A DNA stretch of 44,958 bases from a virus: the IMG/VR virus record IMGVR_UViG_3300044815_000084, positions 1-44,958 of that record, one strand, 5' to 3'. Shown here in pieces: positions 3,269-40,297 of this stretch. A program made the translations under genes and the position numbers. The first letter of the stretch is position 1. Each line of letters opens with the position of its first letter. The notes below the pieces were generated by a model. That model saw only the letters and a list, made by a program, of their open reading frames with translations, had not been told where the DNA came from and ran no database searches.

Positions 3269-3984
3269 CAGGCCAGTTCCTTTCTCTCGTTCTGTGGTGA
3301 CTGGTTCAGCAGGTGGTCGGCAAGCTGTTCGCCTACGCAGCGCGTGAACGCGGGAGGAATCGCCTCGCAGACCTCGACGATCGACTTCATCCACGGGACG
3401 CCCATCTCCTCGGCCGCCTTCTTCTGCCAGGCCTTCGAGTGCTTCCCACCGTGGATCGACATGAACTGATCGTCGTCGGGGAAATAGCCGTTGCGGGCGC
3501 ACTTCGCGACGTGTCGAAGGTGAGGCGGCTGGGTGATCGGGAACGAGGTCTCGAAGCCGCGGTGGCGATAGAGACGCAGGCCGAACATGTGGCCGCAGAG
3601 CGTGATCGGGTCATCGAGCGGAGCCTGTGGGACGTTCTCGATGACGTAGGGCAGCCCGGCCGCTTTCAACAGCTCGCGGACGGGACCGACGAGGTCGGGG
3701 TATTCCTTGCGGTTGTAGGCGTTCAGTGGGGAGTACGCCTGGCACGGTGGCGATGCATGGATCGCGTCGAAATCACGGAGGCGCCACGCCGAGCCTCGGA
3801 CGTTTCCCCTCAGGTCGCCGATCAGGAGTTCGAGGACCGATAGAGCGTCGGCTTGTACGAACTCGTCTCCCGCGTAATTGGGCATCGGGTGGCGATCGAC
3901 GCCGATGACATAAAAACCGGCGTCCTGATAACCGCGAGCGCAGCCGCCAGCCCCCGAAAAGAGATCGAGCATGACCGGCTTCAC
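3268..3984 (-). CDS. C5-cytosine DNA methyltransferase
   Basis: A 238-residue C5-cytosine methyltransferase that should transfer a methyl group from S-adenosylmethionine to cytosine in DNA. Motif I is FSGAGG (9-14), motif IV is SPPCQ with catalytic Cys at about 81, motif VI is ENV at about 116-118, and the C-terminus has an EAIPPAF...GEQL stretch resembling motifs IX-X. It is shorter than typical bacterial enzymes, so the target-recognition part is minimal. No cognate restriction enzyme is evident; the neighbouring HNH gene overlaps its start by 4 nt. The usual role in phages is protection from host restriction. The target sequence cannot be read from the protein. Confidence 0.92.
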   Translation of the reverse strand: MKPVMLDLFSGAGGCARGYQDAGFYVIGVDRHPMPNYAGDEFVQADALSVLELLIGDLRGNVRGSAWRLRDFDAIHASPPCQAYSPLNAYNRKEYPDLVGPVRELLKAAGLPYVIENVPQAPLDDPITLCGHMFGLRLYRHRGFETSFPITQPPHLRHVAKCARNGYFPDDDQFMSIHGGKHSKAWQKKAAEEMGVPWMKSIVEVCEAIPPAFTRCVGEQLADHLLNQSPQNERKELA

Positions 3985-5081
3985 GACGCCAAGCTCTCCA
4001 CGTACGCACTGGGTGCCAGGCGACGACGGGCTATCTCAAGCGATCCGCAATCTGAGACGGCGAGAAGAAACAGTTCGAGCGTCTCGCCGGGAGGACGCTT
4101 CTCCGCCGTGAGTTCCATGAAGGTTTCGCGATGCTCACCGAGGTAGTGAGGCATCGCCTCGTAGGCCATTTCGATGGAGCCGGTAGCCCTGACGAGATCG
4201 GCCTGTTCTTGGGTCGAAGGGATCGGATAGTTGCGCTCGACCCAGATCGCATCCGTGAGGGCCACGGCGGCCTGCATCTCCGGCACCCGCAGGCAGGTGA
4301 TCGGGATAACTACGCGCCGGTCGTGCCAACCACGATGGCATTCGAAGCAGAGTGGAATCCCGTTGTCGAAGTTCCCTGCGCCCTCCCTCGACTTCGAACG
4401 AGGAACGACATGATGGAGGTGGCTCGCAGGGCGATGGCAGTTCCGACAATCGCTCTCGCCCTTGGCCTTGCAGCCCCAATTTGATGGGGCATTCGTCACT
4501 TTCCGCTTGGGCCTGCGGACCGAGATGCCGAGACATTTGCGAGAGCAATATTTCTGTTCGGACCGCGTCGATTCGAAAGCTTCTCCGCACTGGGCGCAGG
4601 TCGGAAGAACCTTCGGAGGAGCTTGGTCGCGCTTGGTCCGGCCGGCCATCTTCCTCCCGCACGCCCTCGAGCAACAGCGGCGGAGCGTTTCGCCCATCCA
4701 GTAGTTGTAGGCGTCACCGCACCAGTCGCAGCGCCTCTCGCCCTGCTCACCCCGTCGCCCGCAGACCTTCGAGCAGTATTTAGAGAACGACCTTTTCGGT
4801 TTGAAGTCCTGGCCGCAGCTCACGCATGGTCGCGGCGACATATCCCCATATCGGAGCTTGGGCTCGGAGCGCTTCTTGTAGCGGCGACGGGGAGCGCTCG
4901 AATCGACGCCGAGGGAAGGAGAAGTGCGAACAAGTCCACCCTCGACGCCGACTCCAACGCTCCGTAGTTCAGCTTCCGTCTGAAACCGATTCCCGCATTC
5001 GCATGGCTCCGTGGGTCGCTTCCCACCCGTCCCCGTGATGATGTCTGGGCACTCGCAGTCCTTGGTTGCGTAGCGGGTCAT
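3981..5081 (-). CDS. HNH endonuclease with tandem treble-clef zinc fingers
   Basis: A 366-residue protein. After a short N-terminal CxC region come three similar zinc fingers of the form CxxC...CxxxC at about 86-107, 118-141 and 162-183. An HNH nuclease domain at about 212-253 follows: CRNC, LHH, N at about 240, then CFEC-H. The C-terminal 110 residues are helical and unrecognised. HNH domains cut DNA using a single metal; the fingers probably give DNA or protein binding. It overlaps the methyltransferase start (ATGA). It could be a homing-type or packaging-related HNH enzyme or half of a modification-linked pair; the finger array in front of an HNH domain is unusual. Confidence 0.85.
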   Translation of the reverse strand: MTRYATKDCECPDIITGTGGKRPTEPCECGNRFQTEAELRSVGVGVEGGLVRTSPSLGVDSSAPRRRYKKRSEPKLRYGDMSPRPCVSCGQDFKPKRSFSKYCSKVCGRRGEQGERRCDWCGDAYNYWMGETLRRCCSRACGRKMAGRTKRDQAPPKVLPTCAQCGEAFESTRSEQKYCSRKCLGISVRRPKRKVTNAPSNWGCKAKGESDCRNCHRPASHLHHVVPRSKSREGAGNFDNGIPLCFECHRGWHDRRVVIPITCLRVPEMQAAVALTDAIWVERNYPIPSTQEQADLVRATGSIEMAYEAMPHYLGEHRETFMELTAEKRPPGETLELFLLAVSDCGSLEIARRRLAPSAYVESLAS

Positions 5082-6586: not shown

Positions 6587-7612
6587 TCAACCTTCAGCCA
6601 CTTTCAGGTGCCGGACGTTGTCGTTGTACTCGCGCTCGAGCTGGTCAAGGGCACCGACGGAGCCGTGTCCGTAGAGGTCTTCGACGAGACGTGGTCCAGA
6701 GTGCCCGAGCTGCTCTGCGACGACCCGAGCTTCCATCCGTTTCGTCACGTAGAGATGATGGCCTGCGAAGTGCCGTAGCTCGTGAGGCGTGACTTTCTCG
6801 CCGTAAGCAGCCACGATCTTCTGCCAGTAGTAGGTCAAGGTCGATTGCATCAACTGACCGCCGCGTTTAGCCGGGAATACCCACTGCGTCGAGCGGTCCA
6901 GAGGAAGCAGTGCGTCTCTCGCCTCGGGCAGCAGGACGACTTCACGTTTCTTGTTTGACTTCGGCAGATCAAGCGTCCCGCGATAAAGGCGGCGGTTGAC
7001 CATGACGCGATTGCGGGCGAAGTTGATGTCGCTCCATTCGAGAGCAAAGACCTCGCCCACGCGCAGGCCGGTATAGGCGGTGAAGGTGACGAAGGATTTG
7101 AAGGTCGCTCCGTGCTGATCCCCGGCGATCGTCGCAAGCTTCTCGACCTGCTCAGGCGTGAGCGGCTCGAGGTCGGCGCGACCTCGGCTCTTGCGACTCT
7201 GACCGCGCATCTCGTTGCGATCGACAACGCGCTCCTCAACTGCGGCGTTGAGCATCGTGATGACCGGCGGGACGGCCCAGCGGTGATCTGCCGCCCAGTC
7301 GATCGACTCTTCGCGCTGAATGGATTGGAGCGTCCGGTTGCCGAACTCCTTCAGCCACTCGTCGATCCCGCTCTTGGCTTGGTCGTAGCTCGACTTCTTG
7401 TGCTTCTCCCCATATTCACGGAGGTAGCGCTTGGCGAAGATCTTGGCCTGCACCTTCTCAGGAGTCCGGCGAGACAGTTCCCACTGGGCCTCGTCGTGCT
7501 TGGCCTCCTTGCGGGTATCCCGCGCCTCCAGCAGCTTGTACTTGCCGTCTCCGAGATGAACGCGGGCGGCGTAGCGTTTGCCCTTCTTGGTCTTGGTGAC
7601 GCGGATGCTCAT
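6587..7612 (-). CDS. int: Tyrosine-family site-specific integrase
   Basis: A 341-residue tyrosine recombinase that should insert the phage genome into, and excise it from, the host chromosome. The C-terminal catalytic domain carries Arg184 (TGLRVGE), a beta-hairpin Lys region around 218-222, His277-x-x-Arg280 (HELRH), His304 (LGHS) and the nucleophile Tyr314 (DLYGH). The N-terminal part shows a strand-rich arm-binding region (about 1-50) and a helical core-binding region (about 55-135). It overlaps the excisionase-like gene by ATGA and lies next to a site with attP architecture. This marks the phage as temperate. Confidence 0.95.
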   Translation of the reverse strand: MSIRVTKTKKGKRYAARVHLGDGKYKLLEARDTRKEAKHDEAQWELSRRTPEKVQAKIFAKRYLREYGEKHKKSSYDQAKSGIDEWLKEFGNRTLQSIQREESIDWAADHRWAVPPVITMLNAAVEERVVDRNEMRGQSRKSRGRADLEPLTPEQVEKLATIAGDQHGATFKSFVTFTAYTGLRVGEVFALEWSDINFARNRVMVNRRLYRGTLDLPKSNKKREVVLLPEARDALLPLDRSTQWVFPAKRGGQLMQSTLTYYWQKIVAAYGEKVTPHELRHFAGHHLYVTKRMEARVVAEQLGHSGPRLVEDLYGHGSVGALDQLEREYNDNVRHLKVAEG

Positions 7613-12259: not shown

Positions 12260-12423
12260 CAGCGATCACCCGTCTTCGATACCGGCGGATGCCATTTCTT
12301 CGGCCAGAGCCAGTCGGTCGAGGACTTCGGCGTTGGATGCTGAAGCTGCTTCTCGGCTTTCTTGAAGGCGATCACCGCAAGCACCGCAGGGGCACCGATG
12401 ATGAGAATTGGCAGGGAGTTCAC
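12259..12423 (-). CDS. Small membrane protein, 54 aa
   Basis: GTG start at 12423 (GTGA overlap with the preceding gene) with AGGAGG 7 nt upstream. Residues 2-20 (NSLPILIIGAPAVLAVIAF) form one hydrophobic helix followed by a basic, tryptophan-containing tail, so a single-span membrane protein with the tail probably inside. Small early membrane proteins of phages often alter the host envelope or exclude other phages; nothing more specific is visible. Confidence 0.6.
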   Translation of the reverse strand: MNSLPILIIGAPAVLAVIAFKKAEKQLQHPTPKSSTDWLWPKKWHPPVSKTGDR

Positions 12424-13115
12424 GAAGGGACCTCCTCTTTCTCGACGAGGCCGATCTCCGTCAGGTCGACCTCTTTGACGATGCGGCAGCGGTGGACGCG
12501 GAACTTGCCGTTACCGTTGGGAAGGGCAGCGATGTCAGAGGCCTTGAACTCGGCGAGCAGTATGCGACGGCCAGGGTGCCATTCGCTGATGCACCATGAG
12601 AGCGTGGCCAAGTTGATTCCGGAACCACACTGCGCGTCATCGGAACAGTTGGCGTCGGTGACTTCGTAGTCGCCCTTGACCTCGTATTTGATGGTGCCGA
12701 CGAACGGTCCCTCACCGTCCTCGTTGACCAGCTTGTAGGCCCTGATTTTCCCGACCTGGTCCTTCATCATCAGAAGGTCGTTGGTCAGGTAGGGGTTCAG
12801 GCCCTCGGCACCGCGGAGGTTGGCATCGCGGAGGTCGGCATCGCCGAGGTCGGCATCGCCGAGGTTGGCATCGCGGAGGTCGGCATCGCCGAGGTCGGCA
12901 CCGCGGAGGTCGGCACCGCCGAGGTCGGCATCGCCGAGGTTGGCACCGCCGAGGTCGGCATCGCCGAGGTTGGCACCGCGGAGGTCGGCACCGCCGAGGT
13001 TGGCACCGCTCGCCACCGCCGCTTCGACGGCGGCTCGCACATCGGCCGCTCCCTTCGCGACGTACAGCACCTTCGACTTGTCGTAACGCGAGACGATCTT
13101 GATCTCTTTCGGCAC
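12420..13115 (-). CDS. Pentapeptide-repeat protein with C-terminal domain
   Basis: 231 residues from a GTG start at 13115. Residues about 30-105 are nearly perfect pentapeptides of the A(D/N)LxG type, which fold into a right-handed square beta-helix. The C-terminal 125 residues are a separate domain with paired cysteines (NCSDDAQC, then SWCI) seen in other phage pentapeptide proteins. Some pentapeptide proteins mimic DNA and protect gyrase, but that is only a family-level possibility. The repeat block is encoded by 13 copies of a 15-bp unit and may vary in copy number. Confidence 0.85.
   Translation of the reverse strand: MPKEIKIVSRYDKSKVLYVAKGAADVRAAVEAAVASGANLGGADLRGANLGDADLGGANLGDADLGGADLRGADLGDADLRDANLGDADLGDADLRDANLRGAEGLNPYLTNDLLMMKDQVGKIRAYKLVNEDGEGPFVGTIKYEVKGDYEVTDANCSDDAQCGSGINLATLSWCISEWHPGRRILLAEFKASDIAALPNGNGKFRVHRCRIVKEVDLTEIGLVEKEEVPS
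12816..13010. repeat. Tandem 15-bp repeat inside the pentapeptide gene
   Basis: Thirteen copies of a 15-bp unit of the form GAGGTyGGCAyCGCs begin at 12816 and recur every 15 bases to 13010. They encode the pentapeptides on the minus strand and leave several other frames open, which makes false ORFs. Variation is mainly at three positions per unit. Confidence 0.9.
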
Positions 13116-14194: not shown

Positions 14195-14437
14195 CTAGGC
14201 GGCCTTCTCCGTCTCGCGGTAGAGGGCGCCGATGTCGCCATCGAAGAGCACTTCTGCAAGTGCGGGCTGCTGGCGGCGACTCGGCATATGAAGCCCCCGC
14301 TCCCAACCCGAAACGCGAGAGGTCGACGTGCTCAATTCGGCCGCGAGCTGAAGCTGCGTGATGCCCTTCCGTTCGCGGGCCGTGGCGATGTTGGCGCCGA
14401 CGACCTTGGACAAATGGTTAGTTGCGTGGGTTGCCAT
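14195..14437 (-). CDS. Cro-like XRE helix-turn-helix regulator
   Basis: About 80 residues starting MATHATNHL; upstream in-frame ATGs (to 14458) overlap a likely -10 box and are less probable. Residues about 15-70 are an XRE helix-turn-helix (VGANIATARERKGITQLQLAAELSTSTSRVSGWERG). It is the first gene of the leftward lytic operon, divergent from the repressor, the usual position of Cro. It should bind operators at 14.41-14.50 kb and repress the repressor promoter or modulate its own. Confidence 0.75.
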   Translation of the reverse strand: MATHATNHLSKVVGANIATARERKGITQLQLAAELSTSTSRVSGWERGLHMPSRRQQPALAEVLFDGDIGALYRETEKAA

Positions 14438-14500
14438 TTCCTGTGCCATCATACACATTTAATGGCTACCCGCAAACAGACAACCCAAATGGCAATGACA
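14412..14500. promoter_or_regulatory. Genetic-switch operators and leftward early promoter
   Basis: On the minus strand a -10-like TATGAT (plus 14448-14453) follows TTGCGG (14470-14475) by 16 nt, giving a leftward promoter for the early operon. Around it lie AAATGG at 14412-14417, its inverse CCATTT at 14434-14439, and AAATGG at 14487-14492. TAATGG overlaps the repressor start at 14460-14465. Extended matches such as GGAAATGGCAAC and CCAAATGGCAAT suggest repressor/Cro half-sites. The assignment is by eye. Confidence 0.55.
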
Positions 14501-15001
14501 ACCCGCTCTGCCGTCCTTAGCTTCCAGCTTCAGATGTCGGAGCAATCACGCAAATTCGGGCACCGCGTCAGAGAGCGCCGGGAGGAACTCGAACGCGACG
14601 AACCGGGCCGCTGGCAGGCCAAACACGTCGTCGCGCGCATGCACGACCACGGCGACCTGGCGATCAACACGAACCAGCTATCGCGTTACGAGAGTGGGAA
14701 CGGTCCCTTCCCGAGAGAGAACAGGCAGGAGGCTTTCGCCTACGCGCTGAAGACGACCGCCGGTGACCTAATCGCCGGTCCCTTGGCGGAGCGCCTCAAT
14801 CAGGAAGAGAACGTCGGCGACCTCATGGAGTCGCTGAGCGATGCCCAAGGTCAGGCGGATCTTCAGCAACAAGTCGCAGAGTACTTCGAGGCCCTCCGCG
14901 CCGAACTCGGGGAGAAGCTGGACAAGCTGAATGACGAAGTAAAAGCGCTTCGGCAGAGTGCAGAGTCATCTGGCCGTACTCGGAAATCGTCCGGCAAGTA
15001 G
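14462..15001 (+). CDS. CI-like XRE lysogeny repressor
   Basis: 179 residues on the plus strand, divergent from the Cro-like gene. Residues about 30-85 contain a helix-turn-helix (FGHRVRERREEL... NTNQLSRYESGNGPFP), and the C-terminal half is helical and acidic with a coiled-coil, suiting oligomerisation. There is no peptidase (LexA/Ser-Lys) domain, so cleavage by RecA-induced self-proteolysis is not expected. The ATG at 14462 has no ribosome-binding site, consistent with a leaderless message; a later ATG at 14537 is an alternative. It should hold the leftward promoter off in the lysogen. Confidence 0.75.
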   Translation: MATRKQTTQMAMTTRSAVLSFQLQMSEQSRKFGHRVRERREELERDEPGRWQAKHVVARMHDHGDLAINTNQLSRYESGNGPFPRENRQEAFAYALKTTAGDLIAGPLAERLNQEENVGDLMESLSDAQGQADLQQQVAEYFEALRAELGEKLDKLNDEVKALRQSAESSGRTRKSSGK

Positions 15002-15200
15002 CCGCCCGCCTCACCGCCACCAGCGCCGCCGCCAGCGTCTCCGCTTCATCTGCTGCTGTCAATTCGCCGTCTCCTGGCTTTGCAGTTCCCGCTCCGGACT
15101 CTCCCCGATAAATGGCCAATTTCGCAATCGGGCGTCCGTCCAGTAAATCGGACGAAAACCGGGAATTGCGTCAAGGGATTTGCGCGCTTAGGATGGCGCG
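15002..15200 (+). promoter_or_regulatory. Intergenic region with leaderless-type promoter for the metalloprotease
   Basis: No gene is visible in these 199 nt. TTGCGT (15166-15171), a 17-nt spacer and TAGGAT (15189-15194) form a good vegetative promoter. TAGGAT is followed by GGCGCG and then the ATG at 15201, so transcription would start at or next to the start codon. Upstream are AAATGG within a near-palindrome (15110) and a hairpin CGTCCG/CGGACG (15133-15154), possible operator sites. Confidence 0.6.
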
Positions 15201-15743
15201 ATGAAGAGGTTGCTGTTACTCGGTATCGCGCTGTTCTTCCTGGGGACCGCGAGCGCTCAGGCTCGGCCCTTCGGGCCTGTCGAAGAAGCGGACTACGCCT
15301 ACGCGCAGGCCTTCTGGGACGTGCAGTCTCCGCCGCTCTGTGGCGAAGTCGTGAAGACGGTCGAACCGACCGCGCTCGGGACCCCGGGGGATGCGACGAT
15401 GCCGACCACCTTCACCCCGACCTGCGTCATGCAGATCTCCGAAGAACCGGTCGAATCGAACGGACCCGGGATCGTCTGCATCGCGATTATCCACGAGTAC
15501 GGGCATCTGCTGGGACTCGCGCACTCCCCTGATCCCGGTTCGGTGATGTATCCCGAACCCGCCACGTCGTTGGTCCCCTACTGCCTTGAACAGGAAGAAG
15601 CTGCCGAAGCAGCCTGGAACAGGCTCTTCTGGACCCACTTCCGCGAACACTGCGACGCCATCGCCGCCGTCCGGCCTCAGACCAAGCGACTGCACAAACG
15701 CGCCTTCTACTGCCGCAGGCAGATCAATCCGCGCTGGTCGTAG
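15201..15743 (+). CDS. Secreted matrixin-like zinc metalloprotease
   Basis: 180 residues with a signal peptide (hydrophobic 4-20, predicted cleavage after AQA at about 20-22). The zinc motif HEYGHLLGLAH (98-108) gives the three zinc ligands H98, H102 and H108 with catalytic E99, followed by SVMYP with Met116 as the Met-turn, the metzincin/matrixin signature. Seven cysteines suggest disulfides. It should act outside the cell as a peptidase. It is oriented with the repressor, away from lytic genes, on its own promoter, the position of lysogenic-conversion genes. The substrate is unknown. Similar small secreted proteins are known to me mainly from actinobacteria. Confidence 0.85.
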   Translation: MKRLLLLGIALFFLGTASAQARPFGPVEEADYAYAQAFWDVQSPPLCGEVVKTVEPTALGTPGDATMPTTFTPTCVMQISEEPVESNGPGIVCIAIIHEYGHLLGLAHSPDPGSVMYPEPATSLVPYCLEQEEAAEAAWNRLFWTHFREHCDAIAAVRPQTKRLHKRAFYCRRQINPRWS

Positions 15744-15773
15744 GATGGCGCCATTCAATCGAAGGGGAGACGG
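15741..15773 (+). promoter_or_regulatory. Second copy of TAGGATGGCGC promoter-like motif
   Basis: TAGGATGGCGC at 15741-15751 repeats the -10 region at 15189-15199. A transcript starting about 7 nt later would carry a short leader with the Shine-Dalgarno AAGGGGAG 5 nt before the ATG at 15774. No convincing -35 hexamer is seen at the expected distance. Confidence 0.45.
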
Positions 15774-16124
15774 ATGAAGCTCAAGGTTCTGGCGGTCTCG
15801 TTGCTGGCGTTCTTCGTGCTGGCGGGTAGCGCGCAGGCCGTCAATTGGCATCTAGGGGTGCCGCTGGCTCGGCACGAAACGGAAAGCTTCATGAAGAGCT
15901 TCTGCGAAGAACAGAGCGAATGCTTGGCGTGGGCCGGATCAAAGTGCCTGCGCATCTCGGAACGTCAGGTTGATTGCCGGGGAGCGTCTTGGTGGCCCGG
16001 TGAAAGCGTCGAAGTAGAAGAAGAGTGCTACCTCACCTTGTACTGGGGCACGAGTTCGACCGGCGTCATCGCGCTGAAGAATCACAGCTCCCCGAAGTGC
16101 ATTACCGTCGAAGCGGTGGAATAG
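15774..16124 (+). CDS. Secreted six-cysteine protein
   Basis: 116 residues with a clear signal peptide (LAVSLLAFFVLAGSAQA, cleavage near 22). The mature 94 residues have six cysteines (about 44, 50, 58, 68, 85 and 109), enough for three disulfides, and aromatic-rich strands. No enzymatic motif. Good ribosome-binding site (AAGGGGAG). It sits 30 nt after the metalloprotease and shares its promoter-like motif, so the two are probably expressed in the lysogen. It may be a partner, inhibitor or substrate of the protease, or an independent surface protein; none of these is shown by sequence. Confidence 0.75.
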   Translation: MKLKVLAVSLLAFFVLAGSAQAVNWHLGVPLARHETESFMKSFCEEQSECLAWAGSKCLRISERQVDCRGASWWPGESVEVEEECYLTLYWGTSSTGVIALKNHSSPKCITVEAVE

Positions 16125-16180
16125 CCCCCTAGAACGACAAAAAGCGCCGCCACCAATGAAGGCGACGACGCTCAGGGGGC
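16124..16180. terminator. Hairpin between convergent operons
   Basis: GCCCCCT (16124-16130) pairs with AGGGGGC (16174-16180), with an inner stem AGCG (16143-16146) / CGCT (16169-16172). It lies between the plus-strand conversion genes and the end of the late operon, the place for a bidirectional terminator. There is no strong T-run, so efficiency is uncertain. Confidence 0.5.
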
Positions 16181-16208: not shown

Positions 16209-16532
16209 CTATGACGAAGGCCACTGCTTCCAGTTGATGAACTCCATTTCCTTCCTCGGGGGCCAGAAGACGAGATACGGTTCCAACCCCGCTTTCGCCG
16301 CGGCGTCGTAGAGAGCTTCACGCTTCTCCGGTCCGAATGAGTGATAGGGACCGGCGGTCGTGCTCTTGACCTCCAGCATCAACCCCCGCTGGCCGGCTTT
16401 CAGGGCGACGAGATCGGCCTCTCCGAGCGAGCCACCGGCTTTGATGACGAAGAAGCCTTCGGCCTCGAGCTGCTTCTTGACTTCCCGCTCTCTCGACCGT
16501 CCTCTTGCGCTCGCTCCCTTGGTGCTAGCCAT
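16209..16532 (-). CDS. Small Hjc/VRR-type nuclease
   Basis: 107 residues of the PD-(D/E)xK small nuclease style found in archaeal Hjc resolvases and VRR-NUC proteins: GRSREREVKKQLEAEGF, then GGSLGEADLVALKAG (catalytic E/D) and LMLEVKST (ExK), with a final helix. These enzymes cut branched DNA. It is the last gene of the late operon, so a role in resolving branches before or during packaging is plausible. The ATG overlaps the previous gene by 8 nt. Confidence 0.8.
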   Translation of the reverse strand: MASTKGASARGRSREREVKKQLEAEGFFVIKAGGSLGEADLVALKAGQRGLMLEVKSTTAGPYHSFGPEKREALYDAAAKAGLEPYLVFWPPRKEMEFINWKQWPSS

Positions 16533-16689: not shown

Positions 16690-16704
16690 TCCCTGAGTAT
16701 GCGT

Positions 16705-16782
16705 CTACCGCAGGACGTGAGAGACGATCAGGAGCAACAGGTGGTGGGCGTGGAGCCAGTGCATCTAGCGGTACCGGCCCAT
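16705..16782 (-). other. Two tiny frames after the holin
   Basis: After the holin stop the minus strand reads TAG-ATG, five codons, TAG-ATG, then MHWLHAHHLLLLIVSHVLR and stop. The second frame (19 aa) is hydrophobic and could be a tiny membrane peptide, but it is too short to support and has no clear ribosome-binding site. Confidence 0.2.
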
Positions 16783-16982: not shown

Positions 16983-17600
16983 TCAGCCTTTCAGGGCGGT
17001 TATGCCGTGGCGCTTACGGGTCTTGTTGACCTTGGTCCTGAGCGAGGCGGTCGTCTTGCTTTTCTTGTCGTTGTGGAAGGCGACGAAGTAGCGGGCCAAC
17101 AGTTCGACGTAGGCCTGCGGGTAGCCCGGGCCGCAGTCGACGTGACCGCATCCCATCGTCCCGAAGTCCTTGTGCTGGAAGACGCCGTCACGGGTGATCG
17201 CCCCGCCGGAGCACTTGCCCTTGCGGATCGGGACGCCGTACTTTTCGTGGCCGTACTGGAGGAACTCGGCGGCGCCCTTGAGTTGGTCGTGGCGCTTGAA
17301 CCAGTCCGCAGTCGAGAACGCGGCGAAGCCGATCTGCTCCAGCGAGAGGGTCATCGCGTTGAAGTTGCAGACCGCCCATGCCTTCTGGGAGTCCTCGACG
17401 TAGCGGCCGAACTTCCCATCGACATTGACGCCGACGTGGGCCGAGGCTTCCTCGCCGTCGAAGACGCTGCCGAGGGTGTGGAGGTCGGCGTCGGCGCTTG
17501 GTGAGTCGCCCCCCTCCGTCGTGTGCAGGACCAACCCGTGGATGCGGGCTCCCTCACGCGACGACTGGTGGTCGGTGATGTGCGTGTACGCGATCTTCAC
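16983..17600 (-). CDS. N-acetylmuramoyl-L-alanine amidase endolysin
   Basis: 205 residues of the amidase_2/PGRP family. It should cleave the amide between MurNAc and L-alanine of peptidoglycan. LHTTEG near 25-30 carries the first zinc histidine, SLEQIGF fits the middle strand, and HKDFGTMGCGHVDCGPGYP near 143-161 carries the C-terminal ligands. The basic C-terminal tail may bind the wall. No signal sequence, so it should need the holin. GTG start with AAGGAG 7 nt upstream. Part of the lysis set with the membrane protein and the XhlA-like protein. Confidence 0.92.
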   Translation of the reverse strand: MKIAYTHITDHQSSREGARIHGLVLHTTEGGDSPSADADLHTLGSVFDGEEASAHVGVNVDGKFGRYVEDSQKAWAVCNFNAMTLSLEQIGFAAFSTADWFKRHDQLKGAAEFLQYGHEKYGVPIRKGKCSGGAITRDGVFQHKDFGTMGCGHVDCGPGYPQAYVELLARYFVAFHNDKKSKTTASLRTKVNKTRKRHGITALKG

Positions 17601-35152: not shown

Positions 35153-36726
35153 CAGGAGTATTTGCCGCCTATTCCTTTGCTGGTTCGTTTACGGGGTTTG
35201 AAGGGCTCTGCGGTGCCAGGCACCCAGCGGTCTTCTCTTGCCGCCACGCGAGTTCTCCTGCGCTCTCTGGCGATCTGGTGGGTCATCGCGATGTAGCGCA
35301 TCACGTCACAGAAATGGTCGTTCTTCTTGACCACACCGAAGGAGCCATCCGCCTTTGGTTCGAGGCGGTACTTGCCGATCTCTTTCAGAAGGTGGGTGCA
35401 GCGGGAGGAGATCAGGATCAGGGGGGCCGGGTCGCCTTCGCCGTCCTTGTGGTCCATGCGGCGCAGGACCTCGAAGATCCCCGCTTCGACTTCGTTCTGG
35501 GCCGGGATTACTTTCATCCCCGCTTCCCGCCACGCCATGTCGATCCGTTTGCCGGTCGCCAGTTCTCGGGTCCAGGCGGAGGGATCGATGATGCGGTACT
35601 TCGGCTCCTTCGGAAGCCCCCACTTTTCCCTGATGTCGAAGATCCGTTCGGCGCAGTTGGTGGGGATGGCGGATGCGCCGGACGCTTTGTACTCGTCATA
35701 GATCAGCATCCGACCTTCCTGATCGAAGCCCGCGAAGAGGACGGCGGTGGTCTGCTGACCGGGGTCGATGCCGTCCACCTGAGCCAGAGGCTTGATCCGC
35801 TCGGTGTCGATCAGCGATTTGTCGACCACATGGATTGCCGCCGAGAATTCCGGATAGACGAGGCCTTTGAAGTGCGTGTAGTTCCCCTCCGCGTAGCTCG
35901 CCCTGACGGCCTCTGGGATTTTGGCCAAGGCCCCTTCCAGCCCCTCTTTCGACAGGTAGGGGTTGTCGTAGATCGAGGAGCGGACGACGATCAGTCCGTT
36001 GGGGTAGTCCTCGGACTTCTCCTCCTCCCAGACCTGCGGGGCCTTTTCAGGGCCCTTTTTCTCCTCGAACTCGTCGTGGGTCCAACCGAGCCCGTGGATC
36101 GGGGAGTAGGCGAAAAGCTCTTCCCCGTTCACCTCCGCCAGACGCATCGAGGTGTTCCAGCGGATTTCTTCGCCCTTGTCGCCTTTGGGTTCCTCGTCGT
36201 AGAGGACGATCTGGCGGGTGACGCCGCCGAACTTGTTCACGTCCTGCTCGAGCGTGAGGAAGTCGATCATCGAGCCGTTGGCGAAGTGGAGTTGGTGGTC
36301 TTTCTCCTTCCACGCCTTTTCCCAGGAACCGGAGCGAAGCTGGGACTCGGGAACCCATTTGTGGAGGGTTTCCAACACCGACATCAGAGTGGCCCCGAAG
36401 TCCGGCATGATCACCCTCGCCTTGACCGGAGCCTTCCAGCGCTTGTAGGCCTTCAGGTGATCGGGGACCATGTCGTCGTCCACCAACTGGATCACCAGGT
36501 AGACGACTCCGGCCGTGGACTTCCCCGAACGCGTCCCCCCCATGTAGACCTTCGTCTTCGCCTCGGAGGCCATGAAGGCGACCTGCTTGGCGTGAGGGCG
36601 GAACTTCTGGAGCGGGTTCTCGTCGAGCGTCGACATGACCTCGGCGAGGAGCTTCTGAACCTCCGGGTCCCTCAGTTGCTCTGGAGTCGCCTCGATCTTG
36701 AGGCCACCCGGAAGCGTGATGCTCAA
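35152..36726 (-). CDS. terL: Terminase large subunit
   Basis: 524 residues. ATPase part: Walker A GGTRSGKS at 63-70, Walker B IVLYDEE at 173-179. Nuclease part: an RNase-H-type fold starting near IDPG (D321), with further acidic residues at about 343-345 (IYDEY). It packages DNA into the prohead through the portal using ATP. TAG of the hydrolase gene is followed directly by its ATG. The candidate small subunit is about 4 kb away, unlike the usual adjacent pair. Confidence 0.93.
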   Translation of the reverse strand: MSITLPGGLKIEATPEQLRDPEVQKLLAEVMSTLDENPLQKFRPHAKQVAFMASEAKTKVYMGGTRSGKSTAGVVYLVIQLVDDDMVPDHLKAYKRWKAPVKARVIMPDFGATLMSVLETLHKWVPESQLRSGSWEKAWKEKDHQLHFANGSMIDFLTLEQDVNKFGGVTRQIVLYDEEPKGDKGEEIRWNTSMRLAEVNGEELFAYSPIHGLGWTHDEFEEKKGPEKAPQVWEEEKSEDYPNGLIVVRSSIYDNPYLSKEGLEGALAKIPEAVRASYAEGNYTHFKGLVYPEFSAAIHVVDKSLIDTERIKPLAQVDGIDPGQQTTAVLFAGFDQEGRMLIYDEYKASGASAIPTNCAERIFDIREKWGLPKEPKYRIIDPSAWTRELATGKRIDMAWREAGMKVIPAQNEVEAGIFEVLRRMDHKDGEGDPAPLILISSRCTHLLKEIGKYRLEPKADGSFGVVKKNDHFCDVMRYIAMTHQIARERRRTRVAAREDRWVPGTAEPFKPRKRTSKGIGGKYS

Positions 36727-38709
36727 CTAGACCGCTCCGACCTTGTATTTGGCTTCGAGGGCGGCGAGCTGAGAGTGCAGCGAGGAGTCGCCCGGTTTGT
36801 TCGCCGCTTCGGCTTTGGTTTCTTCACCAGGTCCGGCAATTTCCGTCCCGAGACGTTTGAGTTTGTTGACGTTCTGGCGGATCTGCTGAAGGGGGGTGAG
36901 TTCTTTCTTGGGCTTCGCTTCGCCTTTGCTCTTCTGACCTTCGGTGGTGGTCGGAGGCGTGGAGACGGCGCTGATGATCGCCGGGGCCGCGCTTTCGGTG
37001 AGCGAGCCGGTCGAGGACGTGGTGCCGGGGAGGGCGGTCGTTTCCTTGACCTTGATCCAGCCGCCCTTGTAATGCGGGCGGATGATCATCGAGAGGTTGG
37101 CGTGGGCGGAGACGGGAGTCCTCTCGACTTCGTCGGAGAAGTTGCCCGAGATCATTTCCCCGTTGCCCGCGTAGGTCGCCGTGTGTTCGCCGGAGAAGGT
37201 GAGGATGTCGCCCTTTTTGGCCTTGTCGATATCGGCTTCGCTGGTACCGACGACCGAGGCGTACTTGCCTTCCTGTCCCCATTCTTCGTATGAAGGCGTG
37301 TAGTTGGGGTTGGCCGGAAGTTCGGCGGTCTTGAAGCCTCGACGGGCGAGGTTGTTGGAGGCGAGGTTGGCGCACCACGGTTCGGTGACGGTGTTCAGTC
37401 CGAAGTTCTCGCCGAGACGTTGGATCTTCGCCCCGGTCTCCTGTTCGCCGATATTCGCTTCGAGCCACTGCACACCGGCCTCGGCCGTGGCCTTGACCTT
37501 GATCGTCTTCGAGGCAGGTTCTGCGCGGATGTCCGGCGGCGGGGGACCAACCTTCAGACCGAGGCTCTTGGCCTTCTTGATCGCGACCTTGTAGTTCTTG
37601 ACCGCCTGCGGGTCACCCGGCTTCACCTGCACTTCGCCGGACTGGAGGATCTTCTGAAGCATCGAGCCTTGGTAGTGACCGCCGTCCCAGGGAGATTCTT
37701 GGATCGCCGCGAGCTGAGCTTCGACCGACTGGCCCTTGGTTGCACGAACCCCGGCGTAGTTGCTGCTGGCGGTGTTGTTGAAGTTGGCGGCCGTAGCGGC
37801 TGCGCCTTCCTGCGGCGTCGAGAAGTGCTGGCCGGGTCCGAGGTTCAGGAAGTTGTTCTCGCCCTCGGCTTCGTAACCCGCTGCCGGTGAGCCTGCACCA
37901 TGGCCCTCCTCGGCGATCGACTGGATCGCGATGGTCTTCGGGTTGAGCCCGGTTTCCTTCGCGGTCTGTTCGATGAACTGCTTCTGGGCAGGGCCGAAAT
38001 CTCCGAGCAGTTCAGGCTTGGCTTTGGCGACCTGCCGCTTTGCGGTGACGAGTTGCCTGCGAGCCTGGACCCGTTCCTGTGGAGTCCCTTTGAGGCCGTT
38101 GGCTTCCGGTCCTTTGACCTGCTGGCCTGGTTCGGGAGCGCTCTGGGCCTGCTTGTCCTGCCGAGCTTCGGCTTTGCTCAGCGGCTTGCCACTCGCCAGC
38201 ACGGCCTTTTCAGCGGCGGTGTAGGTCGGAAGGGCGCGTTGGTGTTTCGCGACGGACACCGAAGGTTTCGTGGCTCCCGGCAGCGCCCGCGTGTGGGCGG
38301 CGACGGTGACGGGCTTCGGGGAAGCTGCTTTGTCGAGGAAGGCTTTGGAGACGTGGACTTCCCGCTTCGGAGCCAGTTCCGTGTCTCGCTGCCTGACGTA
38401 GGTCCTGACCTTCTGGACGCGGCGCTGAGAGTCCTTCTCACGCTGAAGTTCTCTGGTTCCCCGCGCGTTCAGCCTTTCGGCGCGCTGAGGAGTGACCTTC
38501 CCTGCGACGGGAGCTTGGTGATACGTGACCTGCCCCGTGGGAGAGACGGAGACCGTCGGAGCCGTGGCGGCGGTTACTTCGACACTCCCCGCCGCCTTGT
38601 TCCCACCCCCACCCTTCTGGGCCGTGGGACGGACTACCGGAGTCTTCGACGGGGCGACCTGGGTAGGCCTGCGGTTCCCCTTGGATGGGCCGAAGATCCG
38701 GGTGGCCAT
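36727..38709 (-). CDS. Virion-associated peptidoglycan hydrolase (lysozyme-like + CHAP/NlpC-like)
   Basis: 660 residues in three parts. Residues 1-230 are Ala/Lys/Gln/Pro-rich and unstructured. At about 240-350 is a lysozyme/glucosaminidase-like domain (FIEQTAKETGLNPKTIAIQSIAEEGHG with probable catalytic E268, then NFLNLG near 286-291). At about 405-545 is a CHAP/NlpC-type domain with Cys446 (EPWCANL) and His509 (GEHTATYAG). Two activities in one virion protein would open glycan and peptide bonds during entry. Placement before the large terminase, away from the other internal proteins, is unusual. Its N-terminal TVSVSPTGQVT resembles the giant ejection protein. Confidence 0.82.
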   Translation of the reverse strand: MATRIFGPSKGNRRPTQVAPSKTPVVRPTAQKGGGGNKAAGSVEVTAATAPTVSVSPTGQVTYHQAPVAGKVTPQRAERLNARGTRELQREKDSQRRVQKVRTYVRQRDTELAPKREVHVSKAFLDKAASPKPVTVAAHTRALPGATKPSVSVAKHQRALPTYTAAEKAVLASGKPLSKAEARQDKQAQSAPEPGQQVKGPEANGLKGTPQERVQARRQLVTAKRQVAKAKPELLGDFGPAQKQFIEQTAKETGLNPKTIAIQSIAEEGHGAGSPAAGYEAEGENNFLNLGPGQHFSTPQEGAAATAANFNNTASSNYAGVRATKGQSVEAQLAAIQESPWDGGHYQGSMLQKILQSGEVQVKPGDPQAVKNYKVAIKKAKSLGLKVGPPPPDIRAEPASKTIKVKATAEAGVQWLEANIGEQETGAKIQRLGENFGLNTVTEPWCANLASNNLARRGFKTAELPANPNYTPSYEEWGQEGKYASVVGTSEADIDKAKKGDILTFSGEHTATYAGNGEMISGNFSDEVERTPVSAHANLSMIIRPHYKGGWIKVKETTALPGTTSSTGSLTESAAPAIISAVSTPPTTTEGQKSKGEAKPKKELTPLQQIRQNVNKLKRLGTEIAGPGEETKAEAANKPGDSSLHSQLAALEAKYKVGAV

Positions 38710-40075: not shown

Positions 40076-40297
40076 CTAAGCCTTGAACTGCTCGACTACC
40101 AACCGTGCTCGCTGTACTCGACTGTCGGTTGCCTTGTAACTGTCGGGCATCCCGGCGTCATCGGCGAGGGAAAGAAGGTCTTCGGCCAGCTTGAGAGCGA
40201 CGGAGGCGGGAGCCCAACGTGAGTCGCCGTCCAAGGAACCGCCCTCATAGAAGTTGTGGATCTCCTCGGCGGTCGGAATGTCACTCAGCGGCTTCAT
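40076..40297 (-). CDS. Hypothetical protein, 73 aa
   Basis: A helical, acidic protein (MKPLSDIPTAEEIHNFYEGG). Last gene of the accessory operon before the gap. A 54-nt space separates it from the next gene upstream. Unknown function. Confidence 0.6.
   Translation of the reverse strand: MKPLSDIPTAEEIHNFYEGGSLDGDSRWAPASVALKLAEDLLSLADDAGMPDSYKATDSRVQRARLVVEQFKA

Follow-up and report, generated by a model that had tools for sequence, protein, structure and literature searches.

A predicted secreted matrixin-like protease and a six-cysteine protein as probable separate cargo behind the putative repressor of a short-tailed, temperate-type phage

What are two genes for secreted proteins doing between the repressor and the late genes of a phage, and do their products belong together? 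The question is raised by a soil bacteriophage contig from IMG/VR, which was analysed over its whole length of 44,958 bases (the window). A sequence-only reading had placed two plus-strand genes with signal peptides between the repressor and the minus-strand lysis and late genes, and their coordinates, strands and signal peptides are as it described. It regarded them as a lysogenic-conversion module consisting of a secreted protease and a disulfide-rich partner. The analysis presented here favours, with a probability of roughly 0.6, a slot for lysogenic cargo (a 'moron' site) that follows the repressor and holds two independent secreted proteins, the protease among them acting on the host surface. 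The genes that define the region are the following:

6587-7612, minus strand: tyrosine integrase (E 1.9e-25)
14195-14458, minus strand: Cro-like HTH gene, divergent from the repressor (Pfam HTH_31 1.3e-8, HTH_3 1.9e-8)
about 14474-15001, plus strand: putative repressor, assigned by position and direction (HTH_31 4.7e-4)
15201-15743, plus strand: gene 1, predicted secreted minimal matrixin-like metalloprotease, 180 aa
15774-16124, plus strand: gene 2, encoding a secreted protein of 116 aa with six cysteines and preceded by a Shine-Dalgarno leader
16209-16532, minus strand: Hjc-like Holliday-junction resolvase, the neighbour that bounds the slot (Pfam Hjc 2.4e-10)
16983-17600, minus strand: endolysin (Amidase_2, Pfam), outside the slot

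The tyrosine integrase and the divergent HTH genes support a temperate phage, and a P22-like portal (Pfam match), a match to an internal virion protein and the absence of a tape measure among the window proteins scanned support a short-tailed one, in agreement with the earlier description. Terminase and capsid matches are also present. Portal and capsid show distant matches to Arthrobacter and Microbacterium phages, which suggest an actinobacterial host; integrase similarity gave no host. The putative repressor, whose start codon is uncertain, has an HTH N-terminal part and a coiled C-terminal part. Its HTH_31 match of 20.8 bits lies under the Pfam cut-off of 27, and HTH genes are found at the same place in relatives.

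Several further observations concern the genome around the slot. Close to where the repressor gene begins (window 14480-14520), the direct repeat GACAACCC-N10-GACAACCC forms a candidate operator pair for the lysis/lysogeny switch. A small minus-strand ORF (14823-15062, beginning LTAADEAETLAAALVAV...) runs antisense over the 3' end of the repressor gene and may be a real conserved gene, since two phages referred to here as A (IMGVR_UViG_3300049259_000187) and B (IMGVR_UViG_3300020034_000064), as well as L016 and L018, show a similar beginning, ADEAEILAAAL. A pentapeptide-repeat-like protein with GANLGGADLRGANLGDADL repeats is encoded at window 12420-13115 on the minus strand. The terminase ORF of phage A (contig 35446-37950; L010 15446-17950) encodes 834 aa compared to 524 aa in the window; the two are 93% identical over 473 aa, and the insert of about 310 aa in phage A is perhaps an intein or a nested endonuclease. 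In L009, a tRNA-like sequence is found between two copies of CTACCGCAGGACG (17078-17229), and the element TCTACCGCAGGACGTGAGAGA of the same stretch recurs at window 16704-16724 (0 expected by chance), with its core in phage B.

Three elements lie within the reading frame of gene 1:

15201-15263, plus strand: signal peptide of gene 1
15492-15524, plus strand: zinc-binding and catalytic motif HEYGHLLGLAH, residues 98-108 (H98, E99, H102, H108)
15543-15554, plus strand: Met-turn VMYP, residues 115-118 (M116)

The N-terminus reads MKRLLLLGIALFFLGTASAQA and is followed by the mature part, with cleavage, judged by eye, likely after AQA (residue 21). The full metzincin signature claimed for this protein, HEYGHLLGLAH-SPDPGS-VMYP, is indeed present, and Pfam Peptidase_M10 matches at 30.4 bits (cut-off 24), covering only the 23 residues from 96 to 118. 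A chance motif is ruled out by shuffling and by dN/dS. A shuffled version of the window would be expected to contain the 11-residue motif 0.01 times, and not one of 200 shuffles produced it together with the Met-turn. Furthermore, gene 1 and its homologue in phage A share 86% protein identity with a dN/dS of 0.12, which indicates purifying selection on the protein.

Matches of gene 1 among PDB sequences are mostly MMPs, and its AlphaFold model (pLDDT 84.8, pTM 0.72) agrees with this: the top 50 PDB matches of the model are MMP-type catalytic domains, the best one superposing residues 21-130 with a Z of 8.4 over 98 residues at 2.8 A. Foldseek returned E-values above 0.001 and TM-scores of about 0.4 over the whole chain, and a viral fold library returned general metalloproteases only. 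The model beyond residue 130, which consists of C-terminal helices, lies outside the MMP match, and the similarity covers the catalytic core only. On this predicted fold, gene 1 encodes a matrixin-type catalytic core. It shares the HEXXHXXGXXH motif and Met-turn with the matrixins (PF00413; MMPs and bacterial karilysin), but differs from them in a mature part of about 159 residues that is cysteine-rich, lacks a pro-domain and carries basic C-terminal helices of its own. As the mature part begins directly behind the signal peptide and a pro-domain with cysteine switch is absent, the protein is not filed as an animal-type MMP. The mature part contains six cysteines (47, 75, 93, 128, 151, 171) that the sequence-only reading had overlooked, and its C-terminal 30 residues carry a charge of +7 compared to -15 for the remainder.

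The position of gene 1 is best understood from the DNA that surrounds it:

15133-15154, no strand assigned: inverted repeat CGTCCG-N10-CGGACG, with its centre 45 bp ahead of the -10 box
15166-15194, plus strand: slot promoter TTGCGT - 17 bp - TAGGAT (CGCTTAGGATGG)
15189-15199, plus strand: 11-bp direct repeat TAGGATGGCGC, copy 1, one base before the gene 1 ATG
15741-15751, plus strand: TAGGATGGCGC, copy 2, in which TAG is the gene 1 stop codon and TAGGAT a -10-like box before gene 2
16142-16173, minus strand: terminator-like hairpin with T tail serving the minus-strand genes, which insulates the slot

The promoter core CGCTTAGGAT is found behind the repressor in the window, in phages A and B and in L018, each time followed by cargo: gene 1 in the window, gene 2 in phages A and B, and a gene for a 103-aa protein with two TM segments in L018. 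In L016 and L017 the slot is empty. TANNNT located 12 bp before a start codon marks leaderless genes, which are common in actinobacteria (PMC3160421). Both in the window and in L018, TAGGAT lies exactly 12 bp ahead of the cargo ATG, so that the gene 1 mRNA is probably leaderless. The hexamer occurs three times on the two strands of the window, namely in front of genes 1 and 2 and of a 73-aa gene starting at 40297. The -35 box of the slot promoter is poor, and a sigma-70 scan finds no promoter there.

The inverted repeat is a second shared element. Measured from TAGGAT, its centre lies 45.0 bp upstream in both the window and phage A and 44.5 bp upstream in L018 (positions about 15602-15617 in L009 and 13023-13041 in L018); its arms differ in phage A, and it is absent in phage B. 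Each genome stretch searched contains one copy of a GTCCG-type dyad, and the chance of each coincidence within seven positions is about 5.5%. By its position at -45, the dyad would suit an activator site.

Phage morons and repressor-adjacent superinfection-exclusion genes typically have their own promoter, exchange their cargo, encode membrane or secreted products and are insulated from the late operon. The window slot has the same traits, its cargo here being a predicted protease: as read from the DNA, it has a promoter of its own, lies on the repressor side and is insulated from the late operon. The lysogenic-conversion part of the earlier claim is upheld to the extent that a secreted metzincin and a six-cysteine protein occupy a lysogenic-cargo position, whereas 'module' is not, as the two genes prove separable.

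The direct repeat hints at how gene 1 arrived. Exact 11-bp repeats flanking gene 1 were reached in 1 of 2000 shuffles. When gene 1 is removed, 16 of 30 promoter bases agree with phage A, compared to 5 of 30 for the sequence actually preceding gene 2. The simplest reading is that a promoterless ORF, gene 1, was inserted between the promoter and gene 2, duplicating (or using) 11 bp of the -10 region. In phage A, the same protease gene lies inverted on the far side of gene 2; the gene has therefore moved at least once.

Gene 2 carries its own export signal:

15774-15839, plus strand: signal peptide of gene 2

This signal peptide ends in AGSAQA, the mature part starts at residue 23, and the six cysteines reported for it are confirmed at residues 44, 50, 58, 68, 85 and 109. 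The only homologues found are those in phages A and B; the spacing of the last five cysteines is near-identical in all three proteins. The window and phage A proteins are 44% identical with a dN/dS of 0.48 at a dS near saturation, and gene 2 changes faster than gene 1. No convincing match of gene 2 to a known family was found in Pfam, PHROGs, NCBIfam, PDB sequences, phages or plasmids.

A possible precedent for a protease with a dedicated partner is the Mtz-Tim system of Listeria, a phage-derived secreted metzincin and a TIMP-like lipoprotein adjoining a CI/Cro-like switch, a system that prophages also carry close to holin-lysin genes (PMC8235301). The window is similar in that genes for a secreted metzincin and a small secreted protein adjoin each other next to phage regulators. 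Following this precedent, gene 2 could be the cognate counterpart of gene 1, inhibiting it, activating it or serving as its substrate, comparable to TIMP or Listeria Tim: both genes are adjacent, secreted and cysteine-rich in the window and both are present in phage A, and another form of control would be useful for a protease without a pro-domain. However, phage B has gene 2 and no gene 1 homologue, neither at the slot nor elsewhere on its contig, a 25-kb fragment, while no gene 2 is detectable in any of the other protease carriers searched. Gene 1 and gene 2 occur together only in the window and in phage A, several of the records being fragments, and in phage A they are convergent on opposite strands. 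Moreover, gene 2 lacks an N-terminal Cys-x-Cys, its first cysteine, residue 44, coming only after some 21 residues of the mature part, and it lacks a lipobox, as there is no cysteine at the cleavage site; its model, built from three sequences, has a pLDDT of 49.6 and is too poor for fold comparison. Absence of a lipobox is also seen in relatives of Tim in other Firmicutes (PMC8235301). By its motifs and gene order, gene 2 differs from Listeria Tim in that its product is no lipoprotein, has six cysteines and shows no obligate pairing. In addition, the window promoter is separate and on the repressor side, whereas Mtz-Tim lies downstream of the Cro-like gene. A regulatory role for gene 2 is rated as quite improbable.

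A functional pair that travels together, as the sequence-only reading had envisaged, is consequently rejected as a rule, and the separate occurrence and convergent order of the two genes indicate that both are cargo rather than parts of a fixed module. The proposal of a new kind of conversion module is also superseded, the phage-derived metzincin and TIMP-like partner of Listeria having been characterised before (PMC8235301). Among open-access papers, no phage-borne secreted protease other than that of Listeria was found in the published literature.

Homologues of gene 1 define a family of about 13 phage-borne minimal matrixins with four core cysteines and no pro-domain. A search with a DNA pattern covering the motif and the Met-turn identified 21 viral contigs, about a dozen of which encode homology beyond the motif, and a profile search added one member in the phage of L016 (G003; L054). 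Across 12 aligned rows, W39, C47, C75, C93, H98, E99, G101, H102, G105, H108, D111, P112, M116 and Y117 are invariant, although motif conservation is circular for the rows recruited by pattern, which include most of the distant members. The 12-protein phage profile also keeps P44 and A65. The zinc motif, on whose retention in related phages the conversion proposal depended, is kept, also in phage A and G003, which were recruited without the pattern; the G003 member has SIMN at the Met-turn with the Met retained. No family member has fewer than four cysteines, six are present in the window, phage A, L025, L026 and L054, and most members combine an acidic body with a basic or histidine-rich tail. 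Beside the family member in L036, and directly upstream of it, a 248-aa secreted-looking protein with eight cysteines is encoded (3872-4618, minus strand), possibly a further secreted cargo gene.

The family is distributed over dissimilar phages. Portal homology unites the window with G001, G002, G004, G009, G010, G011 and G016, while no portal match to the window was found in G007, G008, G013, G014, G015 and G017, several of which are fragments; most likely, therefore, the family has crossed between unrelated phages. The family tree is weakly resolved with poorly supported forks, and the short-tailed carriers form one group in 0 of 200 bootstrap trees. No PHROGs model matches the family, and INPHARED phages contain no true relative. 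The matrixins of Acinetobacter 'phages' in INPHARED were set aside, as they lie beside grpE-dnaK and are probably chromosomal rather than phage-borne. Two scans of bacterial genomes gave no full-length chromosomal homologue, with patterns that would miss most family members.

Such a spread, together with secretion, would also suit a generally useful enzyme, by which the lysogen digests extracellular proteins of competitors or of the soil for nutrition. However, the basic tail points to a cell-bound enzyme, and a shared product would profit the virus little, which makes a public-good or attack enzyme a doubtful alternative with only a slight chance.

The settings of the family members bear on when the protease is used. 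In L025 and L026, which are long-tailed phages with tape-measure proteins, the protease is a lone antisense gene amid structural genes, an arrangement that fits morons, and in L036 and L054 it likewise lies among apparent structural genes. In L024, L027, L028 and L030 it is part of an early-region operon, and in L041 its neighbours are a small membrane protein on one side and, directly downstream, an NlpC/P60 endolysin. Lysogenic use is therefore not general, as the early-operon and L041 settings imply lytic expression. The protease could be an accessory lysis factor that weakens the wall or strips envelope proteins, sensitising its own or neighbouring cells to endolysin. The L041 arrangement and the adjacency of the slot to the window lysis genes speak for this, as does Listeria Mtz, which together with Tim raises sensitivity to phage lysis and wall drugs (PMC8235301). 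On the other hand, the gene faces away from the lysis or structural genes in the window and in the phages with antisense placement, and the window copy is served by a promoter of its own, with the late-strand terminator in between. Lysis assistance is unlikely on this evidence, yet ranks second on account of Mtz-Tim and the L041 arrangement. A change of the host surface is ranked first because all three kinds of cargo are envelope-directed: both secreted proteins carry signal peptides, and the third is a TM protein.

For the favoured reading, surface-directed cargo expressed in the lysogen, the following course can be envisaged. Gene 1 would be transcribed from the leaderless promoter of the slot, possibly with the aid of a protein that binds the -45 dyad, and the lysogen would make its product while the late genes are silent. 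After export by Sec, disulfides would hold the fold of what is presumably a zinc-binding, active endopeptidase, and the basic C-terminal tail may retain it on the envelope of the cell, which is negatively charged. There, it would most likely trim surface proteins of the host itself, which could alter phage adsorption or the response of the wall to lysis. Gene 2 would be separate cargo that uses the same slot in relatives, and no obligate partner.

A wider proposal is more tentative, and the odds are judged to be somewhat against it: temperate soil phages may share a standardised cargo slot, composed of the -45 dyad, the leaderless TAGGAT promoter and the late-strand terminator, in which envelope-directed genes are exchanged at the promoter and leave an 11-bp duplication, with the minimal matrixin spreading through unrelated phages as cargo that remodels the host surface.

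The protease fold as such was already known; new are the spread of the family among phages, the absence of an obligate partner and a slot defined by its promoter and a flanking repeat. An odd gene pair thereby becomes a testable system, consisting of a recurrent family of predicted phage-borne secreted metalloproteases and a slot that differs between close relatives. Lysogens that differ only in the content of the slot would reveal the effect of surface-directed cargo, and the promoter and dyad provide a handle for finding more cargo genes in uncultured phages.
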